A stretch of DNA of 64,000 nucleotides, taken from positions 62,001 to 126,000 of IMG/VR virus record IMGVR_UViG_3300033388_005412, one strand, 5' to 3'. The stretch is from a virus. The number at the start of each line of letters is the position of its first letter. Within the stretch, counting starts at the first letter, position 1. Below, piece by piece: positions 20,920 through 48,438 of this stretch. A program made the position numbers and the translations under genes. Below the pieces are notes generated by a model. It searched no databases. It worked only from the letters and a program-made list of their open reading frames with translations, and had not been told where the DNA came from.

Positions 20920-21606
20920 TCAAAATAAATCCTTTAATTTTTTAACAATATTTAAAGCTTCCGACGCCCTTACCACCATAGTAACATCGGGTAAATGATC
21001 AGGCATACAGAATGGTGGCACGAACGCTTTCGGCAGCATAGACATCATCCCGCTTTCTTTTAACACCACGTTGCTGCGAGTGGGGAAGTCATATTCAACT
21101 ATCTTTCCGAAAACTGATATCTGAGACGGGCTAATAGTTACCAAACTGCCTTCTTCTCCATCACCGGCCGAGCGTAACGCAATAGCATCATCAGAAATCA
21201 ACACCCTGCTTTTGGCACCCGGGAACGACCTGATAGATTTATAGTTAGTTTTAACATTTGAATTATCAATCAACTGAGCAGGCTTCGCCGGTTCTACTGT
21301 ATCAGAATCATTTCCACCATCTTTTTTCATCTTCGGTGTAAAATACGCGAAATGTTTACTGACATCTCTCATATTTGATGAAACATTATCTTCATAAAAT
21401 AAAGTACAGTCAAAATCTTTATCATTTATAGAATAATCCATAATGCCGTTCATATATTGAATTTTGATATCAATAGGAACTTTAGAGAACTCAAAATCAC
21501 CGGCGGTCTTCGGCATAAAATAAATCAACAGCGTGTGATCAGGCAAGCTCCCGGGTTTTTCTTTTGATTTAATTATAAAATTAGAAAGTGTGATCTGCTT
21601 TATCAT
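20920..21606 (-). CDS. Small hub-associated baseplate protein
   Basis: The start ATG 21606 is chosen because AGGAG lies six bases upstream. A longer frame reaches into the hub gene but has no site. The product is 228 residues and overlaps the hub gene by 26 bases. The sequence is beta-rich: GAKSRVLISDDAIALRSAG and SLVTISPSQISVFG look like the strand pattern of an OB-fold or spike-base protein. The neighbourhood (hub, gp25, J) suggests a spike or hub cap. No specific family was confirmed. Confidence 0.75.
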   Translation of the reverse strand: MIKQITLSNFIIKSKEKPGSLPDHTLLIYFMPKTAGDFEFSKVPIDIKIQYMNGIMDYSINDKDFDCTLFYEDNVSSNMRDVSKHFAYFTPKMKKDGGNDSDTVEPAKPAQLIDNSNVKTNYKSIRSFPGAKSRVLISDDAIALRSAGDGEEGSLVTISPSQISVFGKIVEYDFPTRSNVVLKESGMMSMLPKAFVPPFCMPDHLPDVTMVVRASEALNIVKKLKDLF

Positions 21607-28636: not shown

Positions 28637-28672
28637 CTCTATATATACTATTATATTTAACACACATTTATC
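28637..28672 (-). promoter_or_regulatory. Intergenic box related to the other 35-base boxes
   Basis: On the minus strand it reads GATAAATG, then AT-rich sequence, ending in TATATATAGAG. The overall layout matches the four 35-base boxes, but it is one base longer. It overlaps the stop of the 2103-aa gene and the ribosome site of the 62-aa gene. Confidence 0.35.
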
Positions 28673-31600
28673 ATTTTCCGTATTTTTGCAATTTCTCCCG
28701 GACACTCACACTGTCGATATTATATGACGTAGTCGAGAAATTATTTCGTGTATACGCTTTCTGCCTGATTTCATTTTTAAAAACAGGCATCCTCGGTAAA
28801 CTTAAATATTTCTTTTTCTGTATATTTTCAAAACTTTTATTATTAAATAATTCTATATAAGCCTTAGGCAAATCACTTGGATTTCCTAAAGGAGTCTGCA
28901 TTAATTGAGCCCAATCCAATTCCGGTTTTGTAAAAGCATAATCCCACTTCTCACCGCCGTTGCCGGGCATGTGTCCCAATGACCCCATCTGATTAGGCCT
29001 GAACAAATTCAACGCAGCATATCCTAAAGCAACCATGCCGCCGATTCTACTTAAATTACCGGCATTTTTCCATGCGGTTTGCCCAAGTTTATTAACAAAA
29101 TCCTTTTTCATACATTGCAACATTGTTATATCCGAACCCTGTGTTTGAAAATTCAAACCATCCAATAAAAAAGGTTTAACGTGTTCACTGGCAGCTGTTG
29201 CTCCGGGATTTGTAATATTATGTATAATGGCCTTACCAATAGTTGAATTGCCCGATATAAAACTTTGTGTTACCCTATTACCACGACTCCAATAATCAGG
29301 TTGATCCATTTCCGCCGCAACCATCCATTCCCGAGTCCTTACTTTAGCATTTGGACCTAAATGTTTCCGCACAAATGCGGCCGACGACTTACCCGGCAAT
29401 TCAGCATTCCAAAATTCCCCAACTTTAACATCCAATTTCGCCGTATCGTCCATAAACCTCACATTCTTCGGCTCACTAAGATTATACAACGCATTTGAAA
29501 CCTCATCTGAAAGTGTCATAGTTTTACCTTTAACTTTCAAACCCCATTCTATCATCGGAGTTATTTTCCCCAAAAAATCATGTGCTTCGGTTGGTCTCCA
29601 CTTCTGGTCACCCATCAAAGCAATCGCTCTATTAACCAACGGTGTTATTTTAGGCGGCCACGATTTTGGAAATGTTGCCATTTTTTCCATAACCTTTTCC
29701 CATTCACCAGGACTTGATTTCATAAACGCAAATTCATTTCTGATATTTTTCTTTATAATTTCCTTTGCAATTTTCAATGGCTTTAACACACTTGCATGTA
29801 ATTTAGGATCATATGTCGCATATTTTGTGACATCGCCACGTGTAACTGGCTCCAATGCCATCGTAGATGCTTTACTATAAACACCCCTTCTAGTAAAAGC
29901 AGCCTGTGAAAACTCTTTCATACCCTTTGGAGTAATCGCCAAAAAAGCCTCATCACCATCGGAATCACCCCCTAATAATTTTCCGATAACGGATGATATA
30001 CGCATCATATCACCCTTTATAGTACTTCTTGCCCACGCCATGACAGGCGGCATTGACTCACCGCCCGTTGTTGGAAATCTTATTGCAACACCAGGCGCCG
30101 GTATCAATTCCTTTGAAAAGGCATCAGACCATAACTTCCTTATTTGTCCGCCTTTAATACTATTCAAATTGGTTTCCTGAGTTGCTTTAAATAAACCATC
30201 AACGGTCATATCCTTTTCACCTAATTTACCAACTACTTTATTAGCAACCTGCTTCCAATATGGGTGAGCCGCACCAACATGATTTTTATTTCCAGAAATC
30301 CACCCGCCATAATTTTTTAAATATTTCATAACAGAATCCATCTCAGACGATCCCATACTGGTTATCTGCTGCTTAATCATCTTAGCATTATTGTTAACCC
30401 AGTCTTTTGAAACCTGCACTTCAAAGTCCAAAACAGATTTCTTAGTATAATTTCCCAATATACCTTCCGCCCCTGTTATATATGGATCAGCAAACTGAAG
30501 TGTTCCAGTCGCGCCTGGTGCGGAAAATTTCATTCCAGGTGTTATTTTATATTCGCTCATAATATCAAGCATTTTTTGTAAAAAACCACCCGCACCAGGA
30601 GATCCGCTAAGTACCTTTTTCAATAAATTTGCCTGAGTTATCATTAATTGTGATGTTATACTGTGTTTTCCGTCAGTGGCATCAATCCATGGCTGCTCGT
30701 ATAACTGAACAACACTGTTCGACATGCCAAATCTTGTTCCTGGAACTTTAGCAAATGTCGCTTTCGGCGTTTTCACATATCCCAAACCAATTTTCTGAAA
30801 TAAATCGGCGATATCTCTCGGGACTGTTCTGCCCCTAATAATTTGTTCTGATATCAACTTACCCTTTGCTTTCAAATATGTTGGTAATTTCGAATATTCC
30901 GGACTATTTACATCATAAAGCGTTCCCTCAATCTCATGAAATGTTTGATCGGCTATTTTAGCCATTGAGCCCCATTCAGACGGATCACTATGCAAAAACT
31001 TTTTGGCCATTTTTTTAAACTCGTTACCCTCAACTCCTTTTAAAATACTATTAAATTTTTGTATTATATCAACACCGCCCGGTTCCACAACTCCCTGTGA
31101 TATCGCAAACTGCCTACGAAGCTGTCCCATTTTATAACTATTTTGCTCCTGTGCCATATTCAACAATCCTTCAAATAATTTAGAACTGCCAGGCTGATGC
31201 TTTAAAACATTTAAAAAAGAAATATTTAAAGGCACTGTTCCTCCGCCGCGGCCCATAAGCGATTCCAATTGACTAAACCCAAACTGCATATTTGACACTA
31301 GCACACCAGGTGTGAAATCGCCCGGCTGTTGTTTATTAACTAAAGGTCTAACAATTTCAAGAAAGGAAACATATTTCTTTGAAAAAATCTTATCGACAAC
31401 TGCTGAGTCATATGACTTGATTTCGCCAACCATTTTACGGGCTTCTTCGGCCCAGCCTGAAAACTCATCAGGTGACATTTCCCACGCTTTCTGATAAAAT
31501 TGCGAATACATGCTACCGGGTATTGATATTCGTCGTATCAATTCAGAAACAACCGCCCCTTTTTCAGCAGCATCCCATGTTCTATTCATAACAGCAGTCA

Positions 31601-34600
31601 CACCGGCCGCTGACGCTGTTATATTTGAAAAACTAGGAACATCCTGTGTCATCTTCAAACTTTTCATAACTTTAACAATACTATTTAATGCTTTATCATA
31701 ATTTCCGGCAAAAATACTTTCTTTAAACGCATTTGCTTTTATCACTAATTCACCAGTTTGGCGATGAGTTACAACATTCAATTTATCACTTATTCCGGTG
31801 CTCTTAACGGCTCTTACTACCGCAGCCTTTTTATTGGCATCCTTTCCAGCCCATGCTGAAATTCGCCCAAGCATAATAGTTAACATGCCGGCAGGATCAA
31901 CTGTTTTAAGAGTATCATGTCCAACCATCATATCAACACCGTCTGTCATGTCAGCTGTTTCTCTAATTATTCCTTTAGTTAATCCCTTCACCAAAACTTT
32001 CATACCGGCTTTTGCTTTATGTAAATAATCGAATTCTATACGTGTTTTACCTTGATATGATTTAACACTTGTAATTACGGCTTCAGTATTTCCTTTATAA
32101 TGCTGTGCAATGCCATTTAGTACACCAAAAGAATCATTGGGTTTAATAAACTGCCCAGGAGCAAGCTTTTCAATTTTCGTATCAACAATAGCATGTCCCC
32201 CATGACGAACAACCCCGAAACGATTCAAAAATTTTTTATCCATCCAAACCTGCTGCTCATGTGTTTCTTTACTATGCGTAATTAAAACATTCGCCCTATG
32301 CATATAATTTCTAAGTCCACCGTCAAGCATTTCATCTTCAAATAAACCAGGCATAAATGATCTACCTGTCTTATCAACTTTTAAACCTTTCCAATCAATA
32401 TTTCTACCACGGCCAACATCTATGGAAGTTGTGCTACCAAAAAACTGATACAGTGCCCTATGCAACGGCATACCATGAAATTCCGGATACACTTCATCAT
32501 ATGGTAATAATGTTTGTATTCCTCTAATTGATTTATTCGGTGATACAAGTCCTGAGACAAATGGTTTAAATTTAGGAGACATTTTCTCCATGGCATCCAT
32601 ATAATTCGGGCGATTTTTACGAATATTCCAATCTTTTTCGGACCATAAATAATTATCCAAAAAAGCATATAAATTATCTAGTACAGATTCATGCGCCACG
32701 TTTGAGTCATATAATTTTTGCCAACTCATTCCTTTATATAACCTACCAACCAATTTATCAACAAAATTTCTAACACCGCGGGGACCCTGTGGCAGATCTT
32801 CCAAGTATTTTATTCTATTATTAACCAGCGTTCTCAAATGTTCACCTGATAATGATCTATGCGCACCAGGATTTAATTTCATAGACTTTTGCTGATCAAG
32901 TGAACCTTGCAAAAACCTTATCACATCGCCAACTCCGCGACTTTTAGATTTATTTAATAATGTATTGAACGCATCAATATCACCTTGAATATTTTTACCA
33001 ATAACCTGTCCCTTTAAATATTGCGGCAACATTTTTATCAATTCATCACTTGTCACAGGAACAACTTTGTACTTTGCGGAACCCTTCAACGTAGCTAATC
33101 TTTCTCTATTTGCCGTTAACCCACTTATTTTAGCCACAAACTCACGTTTACCCTTTTGTACATCTGTTAGTTCAAATCTTATTGCCTCTTTGATCTCAGC
33201 GCCGTTTTTTGTCTTAATAACATTTAAAATTCCTATATCTTTTATACTATCTACTTTCACACCGTCAACAACAATTTTATCACGACTCATATCAATGTAT
33301 GTCAACACAGAATCCCTTTCTAAAAATTTAGCATGAATTTTCTGTAATTCCGGTAAAGCTGTTTTTTCAAGACCACTCATAAATCCCATAGATTTTAAAG
33401 TTTCTTTATACGGCGCAACATTTAATGATCGTGTCCAATCAACAATATCAACACCAGATACCGGCTCGGCGCCTTTTGTTATATTTCTCATACCCTTGTC
33501 GACCATGCCCTGAACATCTTTTTCAGCGCCTTGTATTAACAAACTCTTATTTTCAGTCGCCATTAAATTCAAAAAATATTTATGTATATTTGCAGACAAC
33601 TTTTGATACTGTTCGTTTGGGTAATTAATATCACCTATTTTAGCCTGTGATGTGATTTTTATAGGAGAAATCGGATCAAATCGCGTGGCCCATTTATTCG
33701 GCATATTCAAAGGTAATTTTATATGCCTGGATTGACCATTTGCTTTATTAAGAGCAACATCAAAAACAAATTTAGAACCGCCTCTGCCGAAATCTTCTAT
33801 GTTAACTGTGATATCATCAAGATTTGCGCCTATGTCGCTCGCTGTTTTTCTTATTAACTGGTAATATTTCATTAAATTATCATATCCCGGGCGAATATAC
33901 CCCGCACCTTTTAACATCTTTCCTGTTTTGGTGTATTTTCCACCAAAAACATCTAAAAGATTAGCGTCTTTAAATACTCTGTCTATTCTTTTTAATTGTT
34001 CTCCGCCTAATTTATTACGAAACTTTTCAACAACATCCCGGCTTATCTCACCTGTTGCTGGGATATCAGATAACAACTCTTTAATATTGGTTGTTGATGC
34101 CAACCTAACAGATTGAACAATATCATTCGGATCATTTACATATTTAGGAAACTCCAGCATTTTATATGATAAATCACTGATTTTCGCAATAGCTGACGGT
34201 ATATCACCAATCTGCTTAACACCCCTCATTTCGACACGAAATTTATTATTTCTGGCTTGGGTGTGATAAAGAAACTCCCTTATCGAGTTTTTATATTCCT
34301 TTAGAATCGAAGCCGGGAGACTAGTTAAACTATCATTATCAAATGAATTAACCTCAAGACTGGGGTGTTTATTAACCATTCTTCTTTTTATATATTCAAT
34401 TGAATTAACATCATCGATATTATCGCTTATATTTTCACCCCATTTTTTAATAACATCGCCACTGGTTGATTTCATAATATTCTGCTGTATCTCTTTATAA
34501 CCAGCAAGCGGATCTTGAATTGATGATGCGCCGAATCCTTTAATACCTTCAGTCATATAGTTCATTTCAAATCTTTTATTTATATCAGTAATCTTTCCAA

Positions 34601-34982
34601 TAGTATTTTTAATATTACCAACATAATCGGTCATAACATTATCAGCATCTCTCGTCAATTTCTTTACCGAATCAATTAACTGTGATTGCCCAGTAGTTAA
34701 CTCCGGAACCCATTTATCCAGCTCAAAAGTGGCACCCGATGTCGCCTGTTTTGTTATTTCATTGTCCATCCACGGGAATAAATTCGCAATGGTTTTTTGA
34801 AACTGACGAAGCGCTTCCGAAGACGGATAATGCAAATTATAACCAAAAATCTTCTTTGTATTATGATATTTCTTCATCAACGTATTCATAGACACACCAT
34901 ATATTCCCGCAAAGGCCGTTATAGAAAATAACCTGGCGCCTAAATTCACATCTTCTCTATCTTTTCTGCTAAAATTTTTCAT
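28671..34982 (-). CDS. Giant RNA-polymerase-like virion protein (two double-psi beta-barrel signatures)
   Basis: This is a 2103-residue protein. Residues 993-1004 read G-M-K-x7-K-G (K995, K1003), matching the beta-subunit motif with both catalytic lysines eight residues apart. A D-M...D-G, then P-x-x-M...L-G-x-I follow, as in beta. Residues 1635-1677 read R-F-P-T, then I-K-G (1655-1657), then D-S-D-G-D (D1673, D1675, D1677), as in beta-prime; the I-x-G to DGD spacing is the same as in Escherichia coli RpoC. Both barrels in one chain, beta type first, is the arrangement of YonO and crAss-like virion polymerases. Ends are hydrophobic (~17-35, ~1981-1995). It starts on a TAATG junction with the tape-measure-position gene, so it is probably a tail-carried polymerase. 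The comparison is from memory of the families. Confidence 0.82.
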   Translation of the reverse strand: MKNFSRKDREDVNLGARLFSITAFAGIYGVSMNTLMKKYHNTKKIFGYNLHYPSSEALRQFQKTIANLFPWMDNEITKQATSGATFELDKWVPELTTGQSQLIDSVKKLTRDADNVMTDYVGNIKNTIGKITDINKRFEMNYMTEGIKGFGASSIQDPLAGYKEIQQNIMKSTSGDVIKKWGENISDNIDDVNSIEYIKRRMVNKHPSLEVNSFDNDSLTSLPASILKEYKNSIREFLYHTQARNNKFRVEMRGVKQIGDIPSAIAKISDLSYKMLEFPKYVNDPNDIVQSVRLASTTNIKELLSDIPATGEISRDVVEKFRNKLGGEQLKRIDRVFKDANLLDVFGGKYTKTGKMLKGAGYIRPGYDNLMKYYQLIRKTASDIGANLDDITVNIEDFGRGGSKFVFDVALNKANGQSRHIKLPLNMPNKWATRFDPISPIKITSQAKIGDINYPNEQYQKLSANIHKYFLNLMATENKSLLIQGAEKDVQGMVDKGMRNITKGAEPVSGVDIVDWTRSLNVAPYKETLKSMGFMSGLEKTALPELQKIHAKFLERDSVLTYIDMSRDKIVVDGVKVDSIKDIGILNVIKTKNGAEIKEAIRFELTDVQKGKREFVAKISGLTANRERLATLKGSAKYKVVPVTSDELIKMLPQYLKGQVIGKNIQGDIDAFNTLLNKSKSRGVGDVIRFLQGSLDQQKSMKLNPGAHRSLSGEHLRTLVNNRIKYLEDLPQGPRGVRNFVDKLVGRLYKGMSWQKLYDSNVAHESVLDNLYAFLDNYLWSEKDWNIRKNRPNYMDAMEKMSPKFKPFVSGLVSPNKSIRGIQTLLPYDEVYPEFHGMPLHRALYQFFGSTTSIDVGRGRNIDWKGLKVDKTGRSFMPGLFEDEMLDGGLRNYMHRANVLITHSKETHEQQVWMDKKFLNRFGVVRHGGHAIVDTKIEKLAPGQFIKPNDSFGVLNGIAQHYKGNTEAVITSVKSYQGKTRIEFDYLHKAKAGMKVLVKGLTKGIIRETADMTDGVDMMVGHDTLKTVDPAGMLTIMLGRISAWAGKDANKKAAVVRAVKSTGISDKLNVVTHRQTGELVIKANAFKESIFAGNYDKALNSIVKVMKSLKMTQDVPSFSNITASAAGVTAVMNRTWDAAEKGAVVSELIRRISIPGSMYSQFYQKAWEMSPDEFSGWAEEARKMVGEIKSYDSAVVDKIFSKKYVSFLEIVRPLVNKQQPGDFTPGVLVSNMQFGFSQLESLMGRGGGTVPLNISFLNVLKHQPGSSKLFEGLLNMAQEQNSYKMGQLRRQFAISQGVVEPGGVDIIQKFNSILKGVEGNEFKKMAKKFLHSDPSEWGSMAKIADQTFHEIEGTLYDVNSPEYSKLPTYLKAKGKLISEQIIRGRTVPRDIADLFQKIGLGYVKTPKATFAKVPGTRFGMSNSVVQLYEQPWIDATDGKHSITSQLMITQANLLKKVLSGSPGAGGFLQKMLDIMSEYKITPGMKFSAPGATGTLQFADPYITGAEGILGNYTKKSVLDFEVQVSKDWVNNNAKMIKQQITSMGSSEMDSVMKYLKNYGGWISGNKNHVGAAHPYWKQVANKVVGKLGEKDMTVDGLFKATQETNLNSIKGGQIRKLWSDAFSKELIPAPGVAIRFPTTGGESMPPVMAWARSTIKGDMMRISSVIGKLLGGDSDGDEAFLAITPKGMKEFSQAAFTRRGVYSKASTMALEPVTRGDVTKYATYDPKLHASVLKPLKIAKEIIKKNIRNEFAFMKSSPGEWEKVMEKMATFPKSWPPKITPLVNRAIALMGDQKWRPTEAHDFLGKITPMIEWGLKVKGKTMTLSDEVSNALYNLSEPKNVRFMDDTAKLDVKVGEFWNAELPGKSSAAFVRKHLGPNAKVRTREWMVAAEMDQPDYWSRGNRVTQSFISGNSTIGKAIIHNITNPGATAASEHVKPFLLDGLNFQTQGSDITMLQCMKKDFVNKLGQTAWKNAGNLSRIGGMVALGYAALNLFRPNQMGSLGHMPGNGGEKWDYAFTKPELDWAQLMQTPLGNPSDLPKAYIELFNNKSFENIQKKKYLSLPRMPVFKNEIRQKAYTRNNFSTTSYNIDSVSVREKLQKYGK

Positions 34983-37900
34983 TATGTATTATAAACCATA
35001 ACACGATTGCTGCCGCCTAAACTCGGCGTTAGTGAAATCGAACCGTGAACACCAGCCCTGTCAAGCGCGATTTCAATTGTCCGCTTTATTTCCATATAAT
35101 TTTGAGTTGGTGTGTATGCTATGCCACCCGTCGGGTTTTCCATATTAATTGGCATAATACCCGGACTATTTGCCACTCTCCTGGCCTGGCGGTAATGACC
35201 GAGACCAAAATCATGAGACTGAAGACCTTCATTTTCAACTGTAACAAGTTTAACATCATCAATCGGAACTTCCGGCGCATATACCGCTGAATTAGGATGC
35301 GGCATCGGCGAAACCTGCTGTTTACTTACCACCATATCAATTGCTCTGCCGTCAATCGCGTTCCATTTAGTTTCAAGTAAATGACCCGTTTCGGCCGGAA
35401 CATATTTTAATATATTATCTCTTTCTTCCGGATCAGTTGTTTGTAAAAACGACACAATATGCTGTTTTTCCTGCGGGGGTGTGGCACGATACATATACGT
35501 CCATCCCTTTCCACTTTTATCACTGGGTAATAAACCCATCATCGTACCGCGGGCCTCGTCTAAATATTGCTCATCTCCTGTCATCTGATATAGCATATTA
35601 TTTTTGGTATATGTTAATTGATCAAAATATCTATTAATTTCACGACCCTTTCTAACACTCGCCGGTATGTATGTCGAACCTGTCACATCATTAACCACAC
35701 CATGAACTAATCCATATGCAGCCCCAACTGCCGCACCGGCTGCAGTACCAAGTCCAGGTCCGCCCACGAGTGTCCCAGCCCACGCACCGGGAATCGAACC
35801 TTGAAATGCTGTTGTTTTTGACATAAATCCCCGAGAATACGCATCAATCCAATGGTCATACGGCTCTGACCACATCTTAACACTTCTTCCATATAACATA
35901 TCTCTTTTGTATGCTTCCAATGGTGTTCTATATGGAAAAAACTTCCTGGAAAACGGCAAATCTGCATGCGACACCGTCTCCCAGACGCTTCCCATGAATC
36001 TCTCAGGTAATGAATATTCACTTGCGGCTTTTATATCCTCATTTAATGACATATTATTATATTCCGAATCAGGGGTTAAAACTTTTCCCCTAAAGCGATA
36101 TGGAAAAAGCTCTTCCTTCATCATGATCGCTTTTCTTTTTTTCAAAATTTTATTTAAACGATCTTCATGATCATACCCACCCATCATTTGCGCCTTTACA
36201 ATATCTAACTCCTGTTTGTATTCAGGACTGTATGGGCCCGTGTTCGCAAGAATATTTAGTCTATCGATATGGCTATACCCTTCAGTTCCAAAACCAAGCC
36301 CCCTGGAATACAATTCACCAGCCATGTGTCTAGCTTGACGAACCGCCGCGATGTCTCTGTCATATCGTTTTTCACTATATGTAGCGGGATGCATGGCCAC
36401 AGGTTTTCCACGCCACTGGTATTGAATATTGCCTTCATAAGTTCCGGTTTGCTTCATATAAAAATTAATCTCAGATATATCCTGTTCAGTCGGACCTATA
36501 AAACTATTTAATTCACTATCACTTAAGTTTTTAATTTTTTGAACAGATTTTCCACGAGTTCCTCTTATAATACCGTCATGCGCACCACTGATATTATTAT
36601 ATGCATCATACACATTAGCACCGGCCATTATCTCTCTGTTTTTACGATCTAATTCACTGGTTGCTCTTTCCAATCCTCTCTTGGGATATAGTCCCAAAAA
36701 CATACGGGTCACATCAGGCACACTCATACCCATCATCTCTCCCATCGCTGGCCATGTGAAATTAATATCAAATGCCGTTTCATGCCCCAAACCAGGAAGT
36801 AATAACTCACCCATTGGAATTTTCGAAAAAGGATTACCAGTTTTATACTTTTGAGTCATCCAAGACGGCATACGGTTACAATTATGAAGTAACATAAACG
36901 GCGTTGTGAATGATTCGCCTTTCTCAACTTGAATATCATAAACATTACCATTATAATGTTTAGTTTGAACATCAGTAACCATGGTAAATAAGATATCATC
37001 TTCGAAAAAATGTCTATGCCAACTTGATTTTTTATTATTTCGTAATTTCTTATTTTTTATTTTTATTTTATACCCATAGTTTTCATTTAATAATTTTACT
37101 AATTTTTCCTCATATTCTGATAAAAGAGTTAAATGATATGATCCTGTTGGTTTATATAAATGAACACAAGAAACACATTTAAACTGTAACAACAAATTTC
37201 TTAATGATAAAATTAAGGATAAAGATGGACTACTTGACTTTATAGCACACACATTGGATTTAATTGACCCATCGCCTTCAAAATGACCATGAAATAAACC
37301 CAAAATAAATTCTTTTGGGAAATGATATAATATAAAATCATCAATATATTTATTCTTTGCCCCTGACCCAAATAATTTTGAAAATAATTTATTATAAAAT
37401 GTAGAATAAATATCAATTTCAATACCATTTAAACTTGCTTTATATATATTTCCTTTAATATTTTTATTTTTAAACCATTTTAAAATATCCAATGCAAGAG
37501 TATTTCGTTCATCTTTATGTAAAGCAAATTTAACAACATGACCTTTTGAAGATGAAGATCCCTCACTCAAATATAAACCACAAATAAATCCAAAATTATA
37601 ATCTAATTCTATAAATCTATTATATCTTTTACCACAACCTTGTCCATTATATTTCCAAATTTTATCACCATCATTCCGATTATAATATTCTGACATAAAA
37701 TCATCACAATCTAAAGTTTGATAACACTCATCTGTTTTTAATATAGGATATCCAACAAAATCATATTTACTGATATCTTCAATATTTTTCCACTCTGGTT
37801 TATAATCTCTGTATTGTTGCCTTGTTTTATATCTTTTTTCATTAAAAGTATTATATCCGCATGTTCCACAAGATTTATATAATCGATTTTTAACACACAC

Positions 37901-40900
37901 TATATTTCGCTCTGGATGACTATGACAAAATTTAGTTTTTATAACATATAAGGGATGGTTATGTGTTAACCACACATTTTCAAAATTGTTATATAATCGA
38001 ATTTTATATACTTTCTCATTAACTAGTCTACTACTTTTTTTAATAACTTTTGTATAATCAAATCCAAAAACATTAGCACCTTTTTGTATATCTTGAATTT
38101 CTACAACTTTCATATTTTTAGTTACAATCATACTATCTTCAGTTAAACATATAGGATTAACAGTTTCAATCTCACCACTCATACCCCTTGGCCGCGGCAC
38201 AAGTCGGCGCCAAAGCTCTGTATTATGAACCGCAATACCTTCTGCAACATAATAATTTAAATCTTGTATCTGTAAATCGTACACATCAACATTTTTATCA
38301 TTTAATTGTTCAACTTTTTTAACTTTTATAAATAATTTATTATCATAAATAAAAGAATTTCCATTTTTAAAATCAGAAATATCCATACTTTTATCATATA
38401 ATAAATTATATATGCCAATAGATGACTGCTTATTCCAATGAATATAACTACTAATGCCCGGCTTTCTTATTGTCCCTTGAGGTAACAATCCACCACCTTT
38501 ATCATGATAATTTAAAACTAAATTACCATAAAAACCCAATATAAGTCCAATATCAAAAACATCCTTCACAAAATTAGACGAACACGAATGAAATCCAGCT
38601 TTCTTTATATTAGAATAACCATCTCCAAGTTGAACACCCTTAAAAAATTCCGAAACAATTTTTTTAGAAGATGATTTTATTATGTAATCTATTTTCTTAT
38701 TCTCAGCTCTTTTACCACATAATTGTGTAGCTAATATAGATAACGGTATACATTGTATTCTTAAAATTAATGTATTGTTTTTTACTTTTAATGTACCAAA
38801 ACTACCAAATTTAATTCGAACAATTTCTAATATTTGTTTTGCATATGCTATTTCATTTTTGTTCATCACAAAAGAAACTCGTCCTCCCTTTTCAACATAA
38901 CCCTCAGCCGCATACCATCCCAACAAATATGAAATACTCTCATCAATTTTAACATATCGATTAAACTTATATATTGTTACTCCACGTCTATGTTCCCGTA
39001 TAGCATCTTTAGCAATTTTATCAGAAATTCCATGATCTCGTAATTCTTTACGAGTATAAAAATTACTTGAAAGTAATTTTCGCGCCTTAATATATGATAT
39101 ATACCTCTGTTTATTTTTTATATTATTTGAATACATAAATTCATTATCGTGATACCTATCAGTATACTTTGATAAATCAATCACATATTCTTTCCCTTTC
39201 GGCTTTACAATTGGAACGACACAATAATCGCCCGGTTTGATGTCCTTAATATTTGTATCACACACCTCGATCTTGCTATTTCTTCGGGAACAAAAAAGAC
39301 ACTTCGCTTTATTTCCAGGAATACATGGTCTTGTATTTTTGTGAGAACTATCAATACACCTCGTTCTTTTAAATATCGGAATATGGTGTTTTGATGTTCC
39401 TATTAATTCAGTATTAATAGTGGCCAATTTCATCTTATATAAATCAGATGCTTTTTTATGAATTTTATCAACAACATTATGTAACTCGCCGTCTAACGAT
39501 AAAACTTTATCACCAACATTTACATCAATAATTTTTTTTAATCCATTATCGGTCGAAATATCAGTATCGGATAGAAAACATGCACCAGTTGGGTCGCCCA
39601 TATTCTGATCCCAAAATGCTCTTCTGAATGATGTGATGTCATTTGATGACGCCAATACCGGATTATCCTCAAACGTACGAGCGAAGCCAAGCATTTTTTT
39701 ACTCATTGTCTCGGCTCCGAAACCCCATAATCCCATATATTCAGTTAAATTATATAATTGTTTATCAATTGTTGATTTCACACCTGAAGCACTCATCGGC
39801 GCAACACCTCTCATTTCAGCGGTTCCCGGTATAAGCGGATTATCTCCGCCGCCTATTGTAACAGCACCGCCCTTAAATGCCGAAATATCGCCATGACCTC
39901 TGCCTGCATAACCCATTGACGATAATGCTCTGTCAACCTCTTCTTTATGCATTTCACGCGGCGGTAATATAGTGCGCCCAACCGTTGCGGCCAATGTTGG
40001 ACCAATAATAGGAAATTCTGAAAAAGGTACACCAGTCATTGGAAATGGCTGAGAATAATAATGACGGAACGCGTATCTTCTGCTTCCACCAAGAACATAA
40101 CCTAACGGATTAAAATCCAAAATCGGCAATGGTTTATATAAAAGCTGTTCAAGAGGATTTCCCAATCCTTCCGGAGTTGACTTATATTTTGATTTTGTCC
40201 TGGCAAACCAATTCGGTGTGAACATTTGTGTGCGATTGCCCTTCCATTGTCCACTGCTTAAAAGCCACCAACGACCTTTTCTATACGGAACCTCTTCTCT
40301 ACCGCTATATATTTCTTCTAACTCATCCTGAGATTTAGTTATATCAAATGCACCAAAACCCTGTGTCGCGCCCAGGCCGATGCCCATCAGCATACCATAT
40401 CCTGCTCCAGCCGGACCACCCCAAATTCCACCGATTTTTGCGCCTGCGGCAATTGGAACAACCGCGCCGCGCATTGCCCTCATAAACGGACTATCAATGA
40501 AACCAGGCATTAAACCTTCAGCATATTTGGCCGAATCTGTTATGCCCAAATCATCATTGACACGTGCAAAAAGCATTCGCCCCTTGACACCCTGTTCCGC
40601 AATCGCCGTGTTAAGACCCTCGTCAAATACAGTCCCGTCAAATAATGGATTCTGATCAGTTAACTTGTCGGCTATATCCCAGGCATTTATAGCTCCGGCA
40701 ATTGGTAAAACACGCTTCATCATCACACCTCTTGTGAATAAATCAGCGCCTGTTTTATATGCTTTCGGATCCAGACCAAGACCAAACCACTCGAACAATC
40801 TGGCTGATCTATTAATTGCGGCCTCAGAAAACACATTATTGAATAAAGATGATTTTTCTCCAATACCTGGCCAGAATCCATATAAACTTGTTACATCTGA

Positions 40901-43537
40901 CGGATCTCCTTCCGCAAAAAAATGAACTGGATCAGAATCACCCCTTGGGATTATACTATATCCCCCGGGTTTAAGTTCCGGCCTGAGAATTTCCATACTA
41001 GACTCAACTCTATGAAATGGCTCTGTGAACATTTTCATCCCTTTTGTGTATACAGACTCGACAGCTAATTTCATGTCTTTGTCATAATTTTTTAACATGC
41101 CGCTAACATCCTTCACAAAATCCGGAGTAGCTTTTTGACCAGCAGCATCATAATTAGCCTCAAAAATATGCCTTGTCAGCCAAACCCTCAAAGATGACGC
41201 CTGCTGCTCATTCATTAAACCCTTATTCATCATGGTTTCTGTTAAACTATTTAACGCGACTGATCCCGCGCCAGCTCCATTTTTAAGTAATTTACTTGCA
41301 GCTAAAAATTCCAGCATTTGTTCCCGACCGGACATAACATAACCGTCGGTTGTTTTTTTAGCAACACTTTTTAAAGTCCTATAATGAATATCATCTCGGG
41401 CATTATTCAACAAATGTTTAATATTATAATTTTTTAATAATCTCTCACCCTGAATATTAGCACCTTTTGCTAACTGAATCATACTAGCTTCTTTATCAAC
41501 ATTTTTAATTAATGCTTCCGGCGCCATGTCTATATCAACACCAATATTTCTCAAAATCTCAGGATTTCTAAATAATTTACTGGCTAATGTACTTGATTTT
41601 TTTAATGTTCTACGAATTGTTCTAATAAACGCGTCCCTCATTCCGGGTTTATTCGTTAACGCCGCATCTTCCAATGCCTTCAAACGCAATGGTGATTCTT
41701 GATGAAATACTTTATTCAAAACACCCTTTATATGACCAAAAACACCCGTTGTCGTGAACTTCTTAATATCTAGTGTTTTAGCAAGAAATCCGCGAACACC
41801 ACCAATATCACTTTCTAAACTATATTGCTGCGCTTTCCTACCTTCTGCGCTAAGTCCCATTGCCCTATTTATAGCAACCTCACCAAATGCGTCTGATTCG
41901 CCACTTTGAAACATTTTAAATTTAACACCCTTAGGTGTAACCCGACGCAATAATGATCCGCCTTCCTGTAAAGGATTTTTTTGAACATTATAAAATGAGC
42001 CGTCAACAAATAAACCATAATGATCGGGCTGAACCTGATAAATACCACGGCCCCTTAAAATTTTATCAGATAAATTCTTAAATCCTTTGGTTTCAATCCC
42101 ACGGCCTACCGCAAATGAATCACCTGGTTTCAACAAACGAAATGTCGGAGAATATGCCGCAATTGTATCCATTTTAAATAAACCGGGTATGCTAATATTC
42201 GTTCCTCCAACATGAAGTCTACCAAAATCAACTAAAAAATTTAATGATCTATCTAAAACTCTTTTTGGATTAATATTCCGTAAATCAATAAGTCCGTGGG
42301 CCCCCTTATAAATGCCCTTATCATAAAGAGGAATTCCCCTTTTGCTCATATGTCTCAATTGTTTTTCCCACACAACAGCGTCACGGGATCCCTTTGTTAT
42401 ATTATGTATCGCTTTATCCGATAAAATAGCCGGTCTTAGATTAAGAGCTTTCTCAAGCATATTCATTTTAGGATGCCCTTTATACCCTTTAATTGCTCTG
42501 CTGAATATACCCAGTTTCTTACGACCCGGCATTCCAGCAGCATCAAGTCCTGATATAACAGTACTCGCATATCCGGTCACTGATGGTTTGAACTCAGAAA
42601 CCCGCCTATATGCCCCTTTAAAGGCTTTTTTAGCTATATCCATGGATTTACCAGGCCTGCGCACTAAAGTCCCTAATCCAGCGTATTTGAGAGCACCAAA
42701 GAAGCTTCCAACCCCAGCCGAAATACCATATATACTGGGAATCTTATTTGCTATTTTACCTAAAACTGATGGCGCTAATTTTCCCATACCAGATAGTTCA
42801 GCACCGCCAACTATTGCGGCCCCACCAACCTCTTTGGTAAATCGAAAAGCGCCGCCTAAATTATTCATAGTCAGCAGCACCGGAAGTGTCTGTGCTGTGA
42901 ATTTTACATAATCTTTAACATGTCCAGGAAGATTATACCATGCCGGGGCATCGGCTTTTTCTCGGGCACCCGCAAATCCTAATAACTTATTAGCAAAATA
43001 TAGTGATGTTGTTGACTTCACTAATCTATTTGTATCATTAACAACTTTTCCGGTTAATCTATTACTTAAATTGTCAGGCTTCCAGAAATCTTTAATTCTA
43101 TCTCTTTCATACCGGGACACCCGCTGTGTTATTTTTCTGATATTACCATGATCACCCAATTTAAATTTCTTCTGATTTGCTTTGATCCTTGCCCAATGTT
43201 TTGTCCACTTTTCATACGCCGATGATTTTGCCGCCGTGGCTGATGTTATCTTACTTGTTAACGCTGTGTGTTCTTTTGCTACATCAGATATTAAACTTCC
43301 AATTGTGCCGCCCTTGCTGATCACCTTTTTTATAAGTGATCCACCAATACCGGCCAATGCTTTACCGCCTATTTGAACGGCTCCCATGGCTGCCATAAAA
43401 ACACCCATGTTTTTAGCAAAACCTAAAAGTGTTTTGCCTATTGAATTACCTTGTTTCTGTCGCGGGTCGCCAGAATATTGTGTTGCCGCCTTCCGCTCGT
43501 AGGGATCCTGATAAATTGTTTGTAACCCACCGGCCAT
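34982..43537 (-). CDS. Giant tail protein in tape-measure position, with two inteins
   Basis: The precursor is 2851 residues. Removal of inteins at 1320-1772 and 1797-2219 leaves 1975. It follows two tail-assembly-chaperone genes, which is the usual tape-measure place. The extein has three Gly/Ala-rich hydrophobic segments (~30-75, ~1030-1060, ~2583-2613) and many Arg/Tyr-rich stretches. After the second intein come NRMPSW, GELLLPG and a PD-(D/E)XK-like segment: HDGII (D2321), VQKIK (K2334, K2336) and GPTEQDISEINFYM. The Glu of the usual E-x-K is Lys, so the domain may be inactive. It could be the tape measure, an ejected membrane-channel protein, or both. Confidence 0.75.
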   Translation of the reverse strand: MAGGLQTIYQDPYERKAATQYSGDPRQKQGNSIGKTLLGFAKNMGVFMAAMGAVQIGGKALAGIGGSLIKKVISKGGTIGSLISDVAKEHTALTSKITSATAAKSSAYEKWTKHWARIKANQKKFKLGDHGNIRKITQRVSRYERDRIKDFWKPDNLSNRLTGKVVNDTNRLVKSTTSLYFANKLLGFAGAREKADAPAWYNLPGHVKDYVKFTAQTLPVLLTMNNLGGAFRFTKEVGGAAIVGGAELSGMGKLAPSVLGKIANKIPSIYGISAGVGSFFGALKYAGLGTLVRRPGKSMDIAKKAFKGAYRRVSEFKPSVTGYASTVISGLDAAGMPGRKKLGIFSRAIKGYKGHPKMNMLEKALNLRPAILSDKAIHNITKGSRDAVVWEKQLRHMSKRGIPLYDKGIYKGAHGLIDLRNINPKRVLDRSLNFLVDFGRLHVGGTNISIPGLFKMDTIAAYSPTFRLLKPGDSFAVGRGIETKGFKNLSDKILRGRGIYQVQPDHYGLFVDGSFYNVQKNPLQEGGSLLRRVTPKGVKFKMFQSGESDAFGEVAINRAMGLSAEGRKAQQYSLESDIGGVRGFLAKTLDIKKFTTTGVFGHIKGVLNKVFHQESPLRLKALEDAALTNKPGMRDAFIRTIRRTLKKSSTLASKLFRNPEILRNIGVDIDMAPEALIKNVDKEASMIQLAKGANIQGERLLKNYNIKHLLNNARDDIHYRTLKSVAKKTTDGYVMSGREQMLEFLAASKLLKNGAGAGSVALNSLTETMMNKGLMNEQQASSLRVWLTRHIFEANYDAAGQKATPDFVKDVSGMLKNYDKDMKLAVESVYTKGMKMFTEPFHRVESSMEILRPELKPGGYSIIPRGDSDPVHFFAEGDPSDVTSLYGFWPGIGEKSSLFNNVFSEAAINRSARLFEWFGLGLDPKAYKTGADLFTRGVMMKRVLPIAGAINAWDIADKLTDQNPLFDGTVFDEGLNTAIAEQGVKGRMLFARVNDDLGITDSAKYAEGLMPGFIDSPFMRAMRGAVVPIAAGAKIGGIWGGPAGAGYGMLMGIGLGATQGFGAFDITKSQDELEEIYSGREEVPYRKGRWWLLSSGQWKGNRTQMFTPNWFARTKSKYKSTPEGLGNPLEQLLYKPLPILDFNPLGYVLGGSRRYAFRHYYSQPFPMTGVPFSEFPIIGPTLAATVGRTILPPREMHKEEVDRALSSMGYAGRGHGDISAFKGGAVTIGGGDNPLIPGTAEMRGVAPMSASGVKSTIDKQLYNLTEYMGLWGFGAETMSKKMLGFARTFEDNPVLASSNDITSFRRAFWDQNMGDPTGACFLSDTDISTDNGLKKIIDVNVGDKVLSLDGELHNVVDKIHKKASDLYKMKLATINTELIGTSKHHIPIFKRTRCIDSSHKNTRPCIPGNKAKCLFCSRRNSKIEVCDTNIKDIKPGDYCVVPIVKPKGKEYVIDLSKYTDRYHDNEFMYSNNIKNKQRYISYIKARKLLSSNFYTRKELRDHGISDKIAKDAIREHRRGVTIYKFNRYVKIDESISYLLGWYAAEGYVEKGGRVSFVMNKNEIAYAKQILEIVRIKFGSFGTLKVKNNTLILRIQCIPLSILATQLCGKRAENKKIDYIIKSSSKKIVSEFFKGVQLGDGYSNIKKAGFHSCSSNFVKDVFDIGLILGFYGNLVLNYHDKGGGLLPQGTIRKPGISSYIHWNKQSSIGIYNLLYDKSMDISDFKNGNSFIYDNKLFIKVKKVEQLNDKNVDVYDLQIQDLNYYVAEGIAVHNTELWRRLVPRPRGMSGEIETVNPICLTEDSMIVTKNMKVVEIQDIQKGANVFGFDYTKVIKKSSRLVNEKVYKIRLYNNFENVWLTHNHPLYVIKTKFCHSHPERNIVCVKNRLYKSCGTCGYNTFNEKRYKTRQQYRDYKPEWKNIEDISKYDFVGYPILKTDECYQTLDCDDFMSEYYNRNDGDKIWKYNGQGCGKRYNRFIELDYNFGFICGLYLSEGSSSSKGHVVKFALHKDERNTLALDILKWFKNKNIKGNIYKASLNGIEIDIYSTFYNKLFSKLFGSGAKNKYIDDFILYHFPKEFILGLFHGHFEGDGSIKSNVCAIKSSSPSLSLILSLRNLLLQFKCVSCVHLYKPTGSYHLTLLSEYEEKLVKLLNENYGYKIKIKNKKLRNNKKSSWHRHFFEDDILFTMVTDVQTKHYNGNVYDIQVEKGESFTTPFMLLHNCNRMPSWMTQKYKTGNPFSKIPMGELLLPGLGHETAFDINFTWPAMGEMMGMSVPDVTRMFLGLYPKRGLERATSELDRKNREIMAGANVYDAYNNISGAHDGIIRGTRGKSVQKIKNLSDSELNSFIGPTEQDISEINFYMKQTGTYEGNIQYQWRGKPVAMHPATYSEKRYDRDIAAVRQARHMAGELYSRGLGFGTEGYSHIDRLNILANTGPYSPEYKQELDIVKAQMMGGYDHEDRLNKILKKRKAIMMKEELFPYRFRGKVLTPDSEYNNMSLNEDIKAASEYSLPERFMGSVWETVSHADLPFSRKFFPYRTPLEAYKRDMLYGRSVKMWSEPYDHWIDAYSRGFMSKTTAFQGSIPGAWAGTLVGGPGLGTAAGAAVGAAYGLVHGVVNDVTGSTYIPASVRKGREINRYFDQLTYTKNNMLYQMTGDEQYLDEARGTMMGLLPSDKSGKGWTYMYRATPPQEKQHIVSFLQTTDPEERDNILKYVPAETGHLLETKWNAIDGRAIDMVVSKQQVSPMPHPNSAVYAPEVPIDDVKLVTVENEGLQSHDFGLGHYRQARRVANSPGIMPINMENPTGGIAYTPTQNYMEIKRTIEIALDRAGVHGSISLTPSLGGSNRVMVYNT
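36881..38149 (-). mobile_element. Intein 2 of the giant tail protein, LAGLIDADG type
   Basis: It is 423 residues (1797-2219). It begins with Cys (CLTEDSMIV), has block B LTHNHPLYV and ends in LLHN followed by Cys +1. The endonuclease part shows two LAGLIDADG-like blocks: ICGLYLSEGS and FHGHFEGDGSI. A four-cysteine knuckle (C-x9-C-x8-C-x2-C) follows block B. All splicing residues are present, so it should be active. The region looks more AT-rich than the exteins. Confidence 0.95.
38222..39580 (-). mobile_element. Intein 1 of the giant tail protein, LAGLIDADG type
   Basis: It is 453 residues (1320-1772). It begins with Cys (CFLSDTDIS), has block B GTSKHHIPIF and ends in VAVHN followed by Thr +1. 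LAGLIDADG-like blocks are LLGWYAAEGYV and FKGVQLGDGYS. A four-cysteine knuckle (C-x10-C-x7-C-x2-C) follows block B, much like intein 2. All splicing residues are present. It inserts after GDPTGA, only 24 residues before intein 2. Confidence 0.95.
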
Positions 43538-43542
43538 TTACA

Positions 43543-44205
43543 TCATCCCCTGTTATTTTTTATTTTACGCCATTCATTCTGTAATGCGATAGTTGATTCC
43601 TCAATTGAAATATTACTTAATTCGTCATTTGATAATCTTTTGACTTTTTTATCATGAACATATTTATTCGGTATTGTTTTACTACTTTTTACACTTCCTG
43701 TTTTATTATTTTTAGATGATTTTTTAGGCGTACCAATTAATCTTATACCGGACATTTCTTCGCACAAATAAACTAATTTAAAAAAATCAAAAGGTGATAA
43801 TTTTTTCAAACTTTTAAATGTATATCCCGGGAAATTTTTAATTATATGTGTCGACCAAATAAAAAAATCATCACGCTGTAAATCTTTAACAGCATTTTTA
43901 CTTCTCAATAAAAGTTCCTTAAACCCATCAGGTTCAAAAATTTTTGTTGATTTTAAAACATATTCCGCTAGTGAATTACAGACACCTATTATTTCGTTTT
44001 CGGCGGCAAAATCAACCGGATATAAAATACAGTTATTTAAAACAAAGTTCTCAACCTTAACGGGATCATCATTATATTTTTGAATATCCTGGCTTTCGCC
44101 TATACTTAAAACTCTATATATGTAAATTTTTTTATTAATAACAACTTTATAAATTTCATACATGGTTTTCCATGCATCAATTTGTTTAGAACTAGGGGCA
44201 TTCAC
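43543..44205 (-). CDS. Tail assembly chaperone, long paralogue
   Basis: This is a 220-residue protein. The N-terminal half aligns with the 111-aa protein just upstream: I-D-A-W-K/V-D-A-W-K, a Y-(I/V)-Y-R-(V/S)-L stretch, G-E and a V-(E/N)-x-x-V-x-(N/H)-C/V pattern ending in an Ile/Pro-rich strand. The second half is extra and basic, ending in Asn/Arg-rich sequence. In gpG/gpGT systems the long form is made by frameshifting; here it is a separate gene. It precedes the tape-measure-position gene by six bases. The family name rests on order and size. Confidence 0.65.
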   Translation of the reverse strand: MNAPSSKQIDAWKTMYEIYKVVINKKIYIYRVLSIGESQDIQKYNDDPVKVENFVLNNCILYPVDFAAENEIIGVCNSLAEYVLKSTKIFEPDGFKELLLRSKNAVKDLQRDDFFIWSTHIIKNFPGYTFKSLKKLSPFDFFKLVYLCEEMSGIRLIGTPKKSSKNNKTGSVKSSKTIPNKYVHDKKVKRLSNDELSNISIEESTIALQNEWRKIKNNRG

Positions 44206-46521: not shown

Positions 46522-48438
46522 TTATTGATTAACAAGGTACTGATAATTGAACGGAGTATTTCCATTTAATCCAGCAACTGTCTGTTCCCGACGAGAACCT
46601 GTAAAAATAGCGCCGGTCGGAATACCACCCTCTGATCCTTTCCTCTCCATCAAGTCTATATCCATAGCAACATATGACATTGTGTTTTCTGTATAGACAT
46701 CCTCGATAGAATGTGTTTGACCCTCGTCGGCGACTTGTATGCCGTATATGGCCATTGTTGATTCTAAACCGAATTCATTAACATAATTTAATATTATATC
46801 AAATGAAGGTAACTGATGCGCGATGACAACTTTTTTTGTCACATCACTTTTTGATTTTGATATGTCCCATAATGCACGCTGATTAAATACATTAAATATC
46901 ATTGATCCGGCGATTGTAATTGAATTATGAGATAAAAACATACCAAATAAATTATGATTATTATCGATCTCTAAATCATATGTTTTAAAAACTCCTATTT
47001 TTTTAATTTCTTTTATTTTAACCCATTTAAATTTCTCATAACAAGATGGTTTATATTTCCGTAAAAAATCAAAAATATGTTCACCTAATTTTTTCAACAT
47101 TTCATATGTAATTGTTTTTGAATTAAGTGTTGATATCCCAGCCCCAAATTTCTTTCTAATATTCAATTTATTATGTTCAATATAATCTCGCAAATCCTGA
47201 TATTTATATCCTAAATTATTCTTTAAAGATTCTAAAATATTTTCGTATCTTTCTTCTTTGCCAAAAATTCCAATTTCTGTTAAAAATCTATAATGATATT
47301 CCGCAGGTATAATAACATTATATGAATCATGTTTTCTTATAATACCCCATTTATTTTTCCTATTTTGTTCTTCATTTACCGGATTAAACCCTATATATGA
47401 ATATATACCCACTTTAGACAACAACTGCTTAATTTGAATAGCTAATTTATGGGAAGTTGTAGAATACGAAATTCTCACAGAATCATTTATTTTCTTTTTT
47501 CTAACATGTATAGTTCCGTCTGTTCCCCAAATTCTGTTCAAAAATAGTTGGGTTTGCGATATTGACATATTCATTAATAAATCAGGAACAGTTTTTTCAT
47601 ATGATTTTTTGCCATAAATTCCCAACGAACGTGTCCAAATAATGAATGGTTTGTAAATTCTTTGAGCCCAACCAGTTGATTTTTCACAATTATGAATTGT
47701 AATATTATAACAATTTCTATCAAATCTTTTATGATACGACAAATTATTTTTTAAACATTCATCTTCAATGTCCTTAACAATTTTCGCATCATAAACACCG
47801 GGTGTGAAAGAAAACCGCTTTTCTTTACCATTTTTATATAAACCAAATACACCATCACCAATTGAATATGCCATAAATTTTATATAATAATCAGGAATAT
47901 TGATATCATCATTAACTCCATAATCTAATGGGATCATTAATTCATCATTAACAATTAATTCAGAAACCGTTTTCCATCCTTCTTTAGTATAAACTAAATG
48001 TGTTTTAGTTAAATCCATTTTAGAACTATCTTGTAATAAAACAGAATAACATTCCTGTGAACCCTTATAAAATTTATTAGTGCACTTTTGGTATGAAACT
48101 TGATTGTTCTTCTCATCCAAAGATAAAATTTTATCACCAATAAAAATATCTTTTACTTTTTTATATCCTTTATCAGTATAAATAAGTTCATCACTAGCGA
48201 TACATCCTCTTGTAAATCCGCGAACTCTGTTACGCCCAAGTGTTCTGACGGCGCCCTTATCCTGATGTATACTGTAACTTAAAGTTGCTATATCTCCGAT
48301 GACAAAAATTTGATCTTTGCCTTCCCGATCCCGGCCGACACATACCGGGATAATATCGCAACCACTATATGTTGATCTCTCACGCCAGGGGGCTGTATCC
48401 AGACGAAAAAATGGTGTGTCGGCACCCCTGTTTTCCAT
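46522..48438 (-). CDS. Tail tube protein interrupted by an intein
   Basis: The precursor is 638 residues. The intein covers residues 79-505, so the spliced protein is 211 residues. The exteins join as ...VRGFTRG + SITIAGSMIF..., which matches the core of the 227-aa tube (RSKRGIAGSMI). The C-extein has a tube-like ending (TMSYVAMDIDLME). In the family, tube rings stack inside the sheath. It sits one gene after the sheath. Without splicing the tube could not form, so splicing probably decides whether the tail is made. Confidence 0.88.
   Translation of the reverse strand: MENRGADTPFFRLDTAPWRERSTYSGCDIIPVCVGRDREGKDQIFVIGDIATLSYSIHQDKGAVRTLGRNRVRGFTRGCIASDELIYTDKGYKKVKDIFIGDKILSLDEKNNQVSYQKCTNKFYKGSQECYSVLLQDSSKMDLTKTHLVYTKEGWKTVSELIVNDELMIPLDYGVNDDINIPDYYIKFMAYSIGDGVFGLYKNGKEKRFSFTPGVYDAKIVKDIEDECLKNNLSYHKRFDRNCYNITIHNCEKSTGWAQRIYKPFIIWTRSLGIYGKKSYEKTVPDLLMNMSISQTQLFLNRIWGTDGTIHVRKKKINDSVRISYSTTSHKLAIQIKQLLSKVGIYSYIGFNPVNEEQNRKNKWGIIRKHDSYNVIIPAEYHYRFLTEIGIFGKEERYENILESLKNNLGYKYQDLRDYIEHNKLNIRKKFGAGISTLNSKTITYEMLKKLGEHIFDFLRKYKPSCYEKFKWVKIKEIKKIGVFKTYDLEIDNNHNLFGMFLSHNSITIAGSMIFNVFNQRALWDISKSKSDVTKKVVIAHQLPSFDIILNYVNEFGLESTMAIYGIQVADEGQTHSIEDVYTENTMSYVAMDIDLMERKGSEGGIPTGAIFTGSRREQTVAGLNGNTPFNYQYLVNQ
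46924..48204 (-). mobile_element. Intein in the tail tube gene, LAGLIDADG type
   Basis: It is 427 residues (79-505 of the precursor). It begins CIASDELIYT, has block B DLTKTHLVYT and ends FLSHN, with Ser +1. Endonuclease blocks are YSIGDGVF and IWGTDGTI. All splicing residues are present. The insertion is at the most conserved strand of the tube fold. The four-cysteine knuckle seen in the other two inteins is absent. Confidence 0.95.

Follow-up and report, generated by a model that had tools for sequence, protein, structure and literature searches.

A single open reading frame (ORF) of a viral genome carries two inteins separated by only 24 residues. It lies in a 64,000-nucleotide stretch (hereafter the window), comprising bases 62001-126000 of the 203,294-base IMG/VR virus record IMGVR_UViG_3300033388_005412. 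Very probably, the two are independently acquired, selfish and bifunctional class 1 LAGLIDADG inteins, located at neighboring conserved codons of a virion protein resembling the orf145 product of phage 0305phi8-36 and splicing constitutively and independently of each other. Their splicing, cutting, homing and timing are what we infer from the evidence below.

Anatomy and class of the two inteins

The ORF is open throughout and encodes a precursor of 2851 amino acids (aa). A sequence-only reading of the same DNA had proposed two inteins of 453 and 423 aa, 24 residues apart, at positions 36881-39580, each with complete splice residues and both endonuclease blocks. The coordinates proved exact, and the residues and blocks were borne out by Pfam Intein_splicing (PF14890), by motif reading and by homologues that lack the inserts. 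Both inteins start with a cysteine and end with His-Asn, and the block-B TxxH motif lies at residue 62 (TSKH in intein 1, THNH in intein 2). The PF14890 scores were 42.4 bits for intein 1 and 43.5 bits for intein 2 (cut-off 35.8), and NCBIfam intein domains also matched. The Pfam profile LAGLIDADG_3 matched intein 2 above its cut-off of 22.5 bits and intein 1 below it (19.8 bits). The further claim that both inteins must leave to give a 1975-aa protein is supported by subtraction of their joint length (2851 - 876).

A PDB sequence search matched both inteins to PI-PkoII. The predicted model of the tandem inteins, which has a low predicted local distance difference test score overall (pLDDT 49.7) and about 80-90 in the endonuclease part of intein 1, matched the folds of PI-PkoII, TliVMA, PI-SceI, PI-PfuI and I-DmoI (11-15% identity in the fold alignments). 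Like the first four of these, the window inteins combine a Hint domain with a two-motif LAGLIDADG endonuclease; they differ from them in their low identity and in the proteins that host them. The residues, the splicing domain, the motif pairs and the existence of empty alleles all fit the class 1 bifunctional LAGLIDADG type, and both inteins are of this type, with splicing and cutting predicted.

Homologues in Acinetobacter phage ME3 (expectation value (E) 9e-23), Moorella phage MTATph1 (1e-20) and Bacillus phage KLEB27-3 (3e-20) run without interruption across either junction; in ME3, the sequence across the junctions reads QNLGDMAGMGEFQRKILG...NPLTNNLPSWL. This contiguity fixes both insertion points and indicates that the gene family can do without inteins. 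The guanine plus cytosine (G+C) content is 28.3% in intein 1 and 24.7% in intein 2; the two large exteins have 40.8% and 41.7%, and the 24 codons between the inteins 51.4%. Since the intein-free homologues are contiguous over both junctions and the G+C content of the inserts is low, the inteins are not a product of chance.

The same data bear on two other explanations of the inserts. That they are decayed or non-splicing, with the precursor used as is or lost, we consider very improbable: the score of intein 1 below the LAGLIDADG_3 cut-off would fit decay, but all splice-site residues and both pairs of endonuclease motifs are kept, the 2851 codons stay open, and the protein could hardly be expected to survive a dead insert within its best-conserved block. 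Least probable of all is that the inserts are virion-protein domains with a Hint-like fold, either Hedgehog-like or bacterial intein-like (BIL). Weak Pfam matches to Hint, Hint_2 and PT-HINT, found beside the Intein_splicing match, speak for such domains, whereas both inserts exceed the Intein_splicing cut-off, have a nucleophile right after the C-terminal Asn and contain LAGLIDADG domains, and the insert is exactly what is missing from the empty homologues.

Recurrent intein invasion of the gene family

The host gene family is an intein hot gene, invaded repeatedly at nine sites. In total, 12 gene copies, that of the window included, have 19 inteins at nine conserved sites, one of the inteins being truncated where its contig ends; eight of the 12 copies carry one intein and four carry two to four (Table 1; numbers preceded by L denote loci). 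The fullest copy is the 3774-aa ORF of L116 (on the contig of L105), with four inteins; L115 (on the contig of L111) has three, and L039 and the window have two each. At site f, L098 holds a 166-aa mini-intein with no endonuclease, which shows endonuclease loss. When placed on one homologue, the mapped copies of sites a, c, f and g (three, four, three and three, respectively) share one codon position per site: 387, 431, 176 and 753. Local conservation at the nine sites ranks between the 68th and 98th percentile of the region. The sites lie near conserved columns (p = 0.02), a value biased by our having searched the block on purpose; the same bias applies to the placement of four of the nine sites within 60 residues, which is not significant under random placement (p = 0.10). 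Two features would make the gene a recurrent target: any change in its most conserved codons is harmful, and only precise loss of an intein is tolerated.

These copies were gathered by several searches. A first scan of viral_contigs, with a profile of the block around sites a and b, covered the best 80 of 206 relatives, and seven of the 80 loci had an intein in this gene (L030, L037, L039, L066, L067, L093 and L098). The second scan used the part downstream of sites a, b and c and covered the best 80 of 219 relatives, sharing contigs with the first and leaning to one branch; a broken block or intein signal appeared in none of its 80 loci. Among 138 stretches from a scan of genome_contigs with the closer alignment A4, six were relatives and none had an intein, including L121, whose frame is broken. 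An upstream alignment (A3) was too poorly conserved to serve as a search profile, and a scan with the C-extein gave no close relative. Patterns of intein ends and extein junctions, searched at sites a, b and c, added L102, L105, L107 and L111. The site-c pattern hit seven stretches, four of them real (L102, L104, L105 and L107, with L104 being the contig of L066) and three due to chance (L101, L103 and L106), and the single stretch hit by the site-a pattern was real (L111). Whole genes were read from five records. Overall, the block was unbroken in 163 of 171 loci, counted without de-duplication of contigs.

Inteins appear not to be the only elements that enter this block. The KLEB27-3 gene breaks off directly after NPIRNQMPDW, and 1.1 kilobases (kb) later its second half resumes at PGVEYFTDF, at the matching residue. 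This interruption is found about 23 nucleotides (seven codons plus about two bases) past the intein-2 site. It contains an HNH endonuclease ORF (phrog_374, E 4e-66) and a weak match to Rfam RF00028 (19.6 bits, E 0.028; cut-off 50 bits); at gathering thresholds, Rfam gave no match in either the window or the KLEB27-3 stretch. A group I intron is the probable identity of the KLEB27-3 interruption.

Some members of the family stand out in other respects. The contig of L105 (G002, a 140-kb record) belongs to an unusually intein-rich phage: of its ten intein-splicing matches, the 3774-aa ORF accounts for three, a 1419-aa ORF for four and other parts of the record for three. Downstream of the GYE motif, L105 shares with L058, L066, L075 and L090 an extra domain that, by eye, looks like a PD-(D/E)XK nuclease; no Pfam match was obtained in the L066 and L105 stretches.

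Kinship, probable spread and possible control of splicing

Intein 1 is, judged by sequence, allelic to the site-a inteins of two distant phages, since its full-length matches to L116_a (E 8e-51) and L115_a (2e-45) are far better than its best match at another site (1e-20). L115_a and L116_a are 44.9% identical, versus 31.6% for their extein regions, and a midpoint-rooted tree places their hosts in opposite halves. Because the two inteins are more alike than their exteins and their hosts are so far apart, transfer of the site-a intein between lineages is probable. At site c, L112_c and L113_c (48.9% identity versus 36.3% for the exteins) also point to transfer; the other site-c pairs compared reach only 24.0-27.5%. 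The best match of intein 2 lies at a different site (L116_e, E 1e-28, 33.8% identity). The tree includes 91 of 104 rows, identical ones having been removed, and of L123-L202 it samples every sixth locus from L137 on. In it, the window groups with L112, L113, L114, L116 and L037 (Shimodaira-Hasegawa-like approximate likelihood ratio test, SH-aLRT, 96), and all six carry inteins; L113, L114 and L116 were found through intein junctions, and the clustering of intein bearers is partly produced by the search.

We propose that each intein would fold its own Hint domain and splice out without the other. An N-S shift at C1320 or C1797 would be followed by transfer to T1773 or C2220 and cyclization of N1772 or N2219, and the intact 1975-aa protein would be left after both excisions. 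Because both inteins are complete in their catalytic residues, splicing should need no particular order, and the N-terminal intein might leave during translation. In mixed infections, each endonuclease would cut intein-less alleles, at sites about 72 base pairs (bp) apart, and repair would copy the intein over. The double allele is expected to have arisen stepwise because, in Haloferax mcm, two active neighboring endonucleases make invasion of the empty allele inefficient and double alleles invade almost only singly occupied ones (PMC10643990). Site a may have been invaded first and site b second, a weakly favored order given that site a is shared with distant phages and site b is filled in the window phage alone.

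Several observations weigh against this picture. By analogy with mcm, neighboring endonucleases may hinder each other's homing (PMC10643990). The identity of intein 1 to its site-a alleles (28.0-28.8%) is slightly below that of the exteins (32.6-32.8%), which suggests old residence, and this fits as well as transfer does. The site-b junction pattern hit three stretches, none of them an intein, and single-protein scans of viral_contigs revealed no close relatives of intein 1 or intein 2; with site b seen in the window phage alone and no close intein relatives, recent homing of the window copies is unsupported. The window clade may hold no intein-free member, and a clade-specific functional role would explain that too. 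Finally, a four-cysteine (Cys4) cluster, C-x7..10-C-x7..8-C-x2-C, starts 75-78 residues in, just past block B, in nine of the 18 complete inteins of the family, at five sites (window inteins 1 and 2, L115_a, L115_g, L116_a, L116_d, L116_e, L039_g and L067_g). The cluster is zinc-ribbon-like and is possibly a metal or redox switch.

Its nearness to block B in both window inteins would suit regulated splicing, in which a post-translational switch, formed by one intein or by both, responds to redox, zinc, temperature or host state and delays maturation of the virion protein. Moreover, the two inteins of Mycobacterium DnaB can differ in their response to stress (PMC6195587). Regulated splicing nevertheless seems quite improbable to us: most relatives lack inteins in this gene, intein site and number differ between relatives, the gene lies off the inferred tape-measure position, and the Cys4 cluster is placed where the DNA-recognition part of the endonuclease could be, so that it need not touch splicing. 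The first three of these facts also count against the earlier suggestion that the order or timing of splicing controls tail length or ejection, which we do not uphold. Indeed, the variation in site and number among relatives argues for mobile elements rather than for a conserved control.

Host gene, known systems and further observations

The gene order in the window is portal, head protein, sheath, tube-like proteins, chaperonin-like protein, intein ORF, a 2103-aa gene, a 2288-aa gene and baseplate wedge. The annotation of ME3_35, the homologue in ME3, reads virion structural protein and likens it to YP_001429636.1 of phage 0305phi8-36; a tail chaperonin (like YP_001429634.1) comes before it and a hub protein (like YP_001429638.1) after it. 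In 0305phi8-36, orfs 143/144 are chaperonins, orf146 is the tape measure and gp147 is the hub, with the chaperonins one gene away from the tape measure (PMC2147016). The homology to ME3_35, the count of accessions, and the sheath, tube and chaperonin neighbors indicate that the host gene encodes an orf145-like virion protein, and the source phage is best read as a 0305phi8-36-like large myophage. Of the earlier label "tail gene", this leaves a virion protein of the tail module and nothing beyond. The intein ORF directly follows the chaperonin-like gene; a tape-measure reading was set aside as less likely on gene order, because the ME3_35 homology puts the ORF one gene before the inferred tape-measure position. 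Control of tail length would thus need the adjoining 2103-aa gene, a tape-measure candidate by position, for which BLAST gave no match to ME3_36 or MTATph1 CDS0027 and no homologue was detected. A model of the homologue region in L024 (862 aa, pLDDT 76.4) had four viral-model matches at E <= 1e-3 and no PDB match at that level, so the extein fold gives no function. At the hub position, the 2288-aa protein (21581-28447, minus strand) has an SNase domain (PF00565, E 1.4e-6) at residues 60-153.

Table 1. Features of the window, followed by the nine intein sites of the gene family (slash, intein position in the junction; all window features on the minus strand)
Feature	Window position or junction	Strand	Details
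Host ORF	34982..43537	-	2851-aa precursor, 1975 aa spliced; homologue of ME3_35 / 0305phi8-36 orf145-like virion structural protein
N-extein	39581..43537	-	aa 1-1319
Intein 1 (site a)	38222..39580	-	453 aa, C1320..HN1772, +1 = T1773; allelic to L116_a, L115_a
Intein 1 Cys4 cluster, after block B	39290..39358	-	C-x10-C-x7-C-x2-C; motif reading
Intein 1 first LAGLIDADG motif	38900..38926	-	LLGWYAAEG; motif reading
Intein 1 second LAGLIDADG motif	38618..38644	-	FKGVQLGDG; motif reading
Extein piece between inteins	38150..38221	-	TELWRRLVPRPRGMSGEIETVNPI; 24 aa, 51.4% G+C; contiguous in homologues
Intein 2 (site b)	36881..38149	-	423 aa, C1797..HN2219, +1 = C2220
Intein 2 Cys4 cluster, after block B	37859..37927	-	C-x9-C-x8-C-x2-C; motif reading
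Intein 2 first LAGLIDADG motif	37559..37585	-	ICGLYLSEG; motif reading
Intein 2 second LAGLIDADG motif	37268..37294	-	FHGHFEGDG; motif reading
C-extein	34985..36880	-	632 aa
Gene at tape-measure position	28671..34982	-	2103 aa; position only
Tail-chaperonin-like gene directly upstream of intein ORF	43543..44205	-	ME3_33, E 5e-5
Third window intein, in tail-tube-like gene (ORF 46522-48438)	46921..48204	-	428 aa; intein domain match
Site f	WEFGR/S		L115, L093, L098
Site f2	TPYKG/S		L030
Site d	RPYAE/S		L116
Site a	/[TS]E..RR		window (intein 1), L115, L116
Site b	NPI/CN		window only (intein 2)
Site c	GD[PA][YF]/TK		L066, L037 (N side only seen), L113, L114, L116
Site h	LPGPGY/S		L039
Site e	SLPER/S		L116
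Site g	DW[LV]GW/SP.VD		L115, L067, L039

Genes with several inteins are already known, and the window pair adds one more such case. The closest parallel is haloarchaeal mcm (sites MCM-a, -b, -c and -d; PMC10643990), in which one gene has four close sites, several of them filled at once, with LAGLIDADG endonucleases and a double allele that affects homing. As there, the present family has several distinct sites and both singly and multiply filled alleles, with descent at one site seen at site a and, for L112 and L113, at site c. Unlike mcm, which encodes the archaeal replicative helicase, the gene studied here encodes a phage virion protein and has nine sites, of which a and b are 72 bp apart. 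The ribonucleotide reductase gene of Trichodesmium erythraeum has four inteins in one ORF, as does L116 (PMC1635734), and, with three group II introns according to a title cited in PMC4649490, combines introns with inteins; in contrast to that cellular enzyme gene, intron- and intein-bearing copies here sit in different phages. Campylobacter phage nrdA also has two putative inteins in one phage gene (PMC3653736), but it is a nucleotide-metabolism gene rather than one for a virion protein. Mycobacterium smegmatis DnaB likewise has two inteins per protein, each with its own splicing rate (PMC6195587); stress-dependent splicing was assayed there, whereas the window pair is known from sequence alone. 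The multi-intein cases compared are thus replication and nucleotide-metabolism genes, and a search of open-license papers gave no description of a phage virion gene as a multi-intein target, which is not proof of absence.

The nine sites, the ORFs with as many as four inteins, the empty alleles, one mini-intein and the probable intron of the same block make the family a natural series on help and hindrance among neighboring mobile elements. It also lets one ask whether inteins act as weapons between co-infecting phages. A tentative and rather unlikely extension is that the orf145-like gene ranks among the most intein-targeted phage genes and serves as an arena of phage-phage competition. In a co-infecting phage without inteins, an essential virion gene would then be cut by the endonucleases of neighboring sites; a pair of cuts separated by 72 bp would amount to a near-lethal double break in this rival, and alleles with two, three or four inteins would be the winners of successive invasions. 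The Cys4 cluster that many of the inteins share could be part of the DNA-recognition region. The inteins also draw attention to a conserved and unstudied block, NPIxNxMPSWxP...GDPYxKxxxGExRLPGxGY, as one of the key parts of the virion protein.

Further intein-like elements were seen outside the host gene. Over the site of the third window intein, in the tail-tube-like ORF, the KLEB27-3 tube protein gp027 is contiguous. At G000:C1:129591-131315 (L018), a 575-aa ORF has an intein-like insert (C..HN/C), with a stretch, YLMKRGRFWRIGKTK, that we take to resemble a GIY-YIG endonuclease. At G000:C1:36001-40524 (L017), an intein-like domain lies in an ORF of at least 1508 aa (1686 aa) that is glycosyltransferase-like by eye. 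At G000:C1:10454-12786 (L019), a gene that is rtcB-like by eye is split around a 275-aa LAGLIDADG ORF, perhaps by an intron, and on the same contig another LAGLIDADG ORF (G000:C1:19006-20094) adjoins a recA-like gene.

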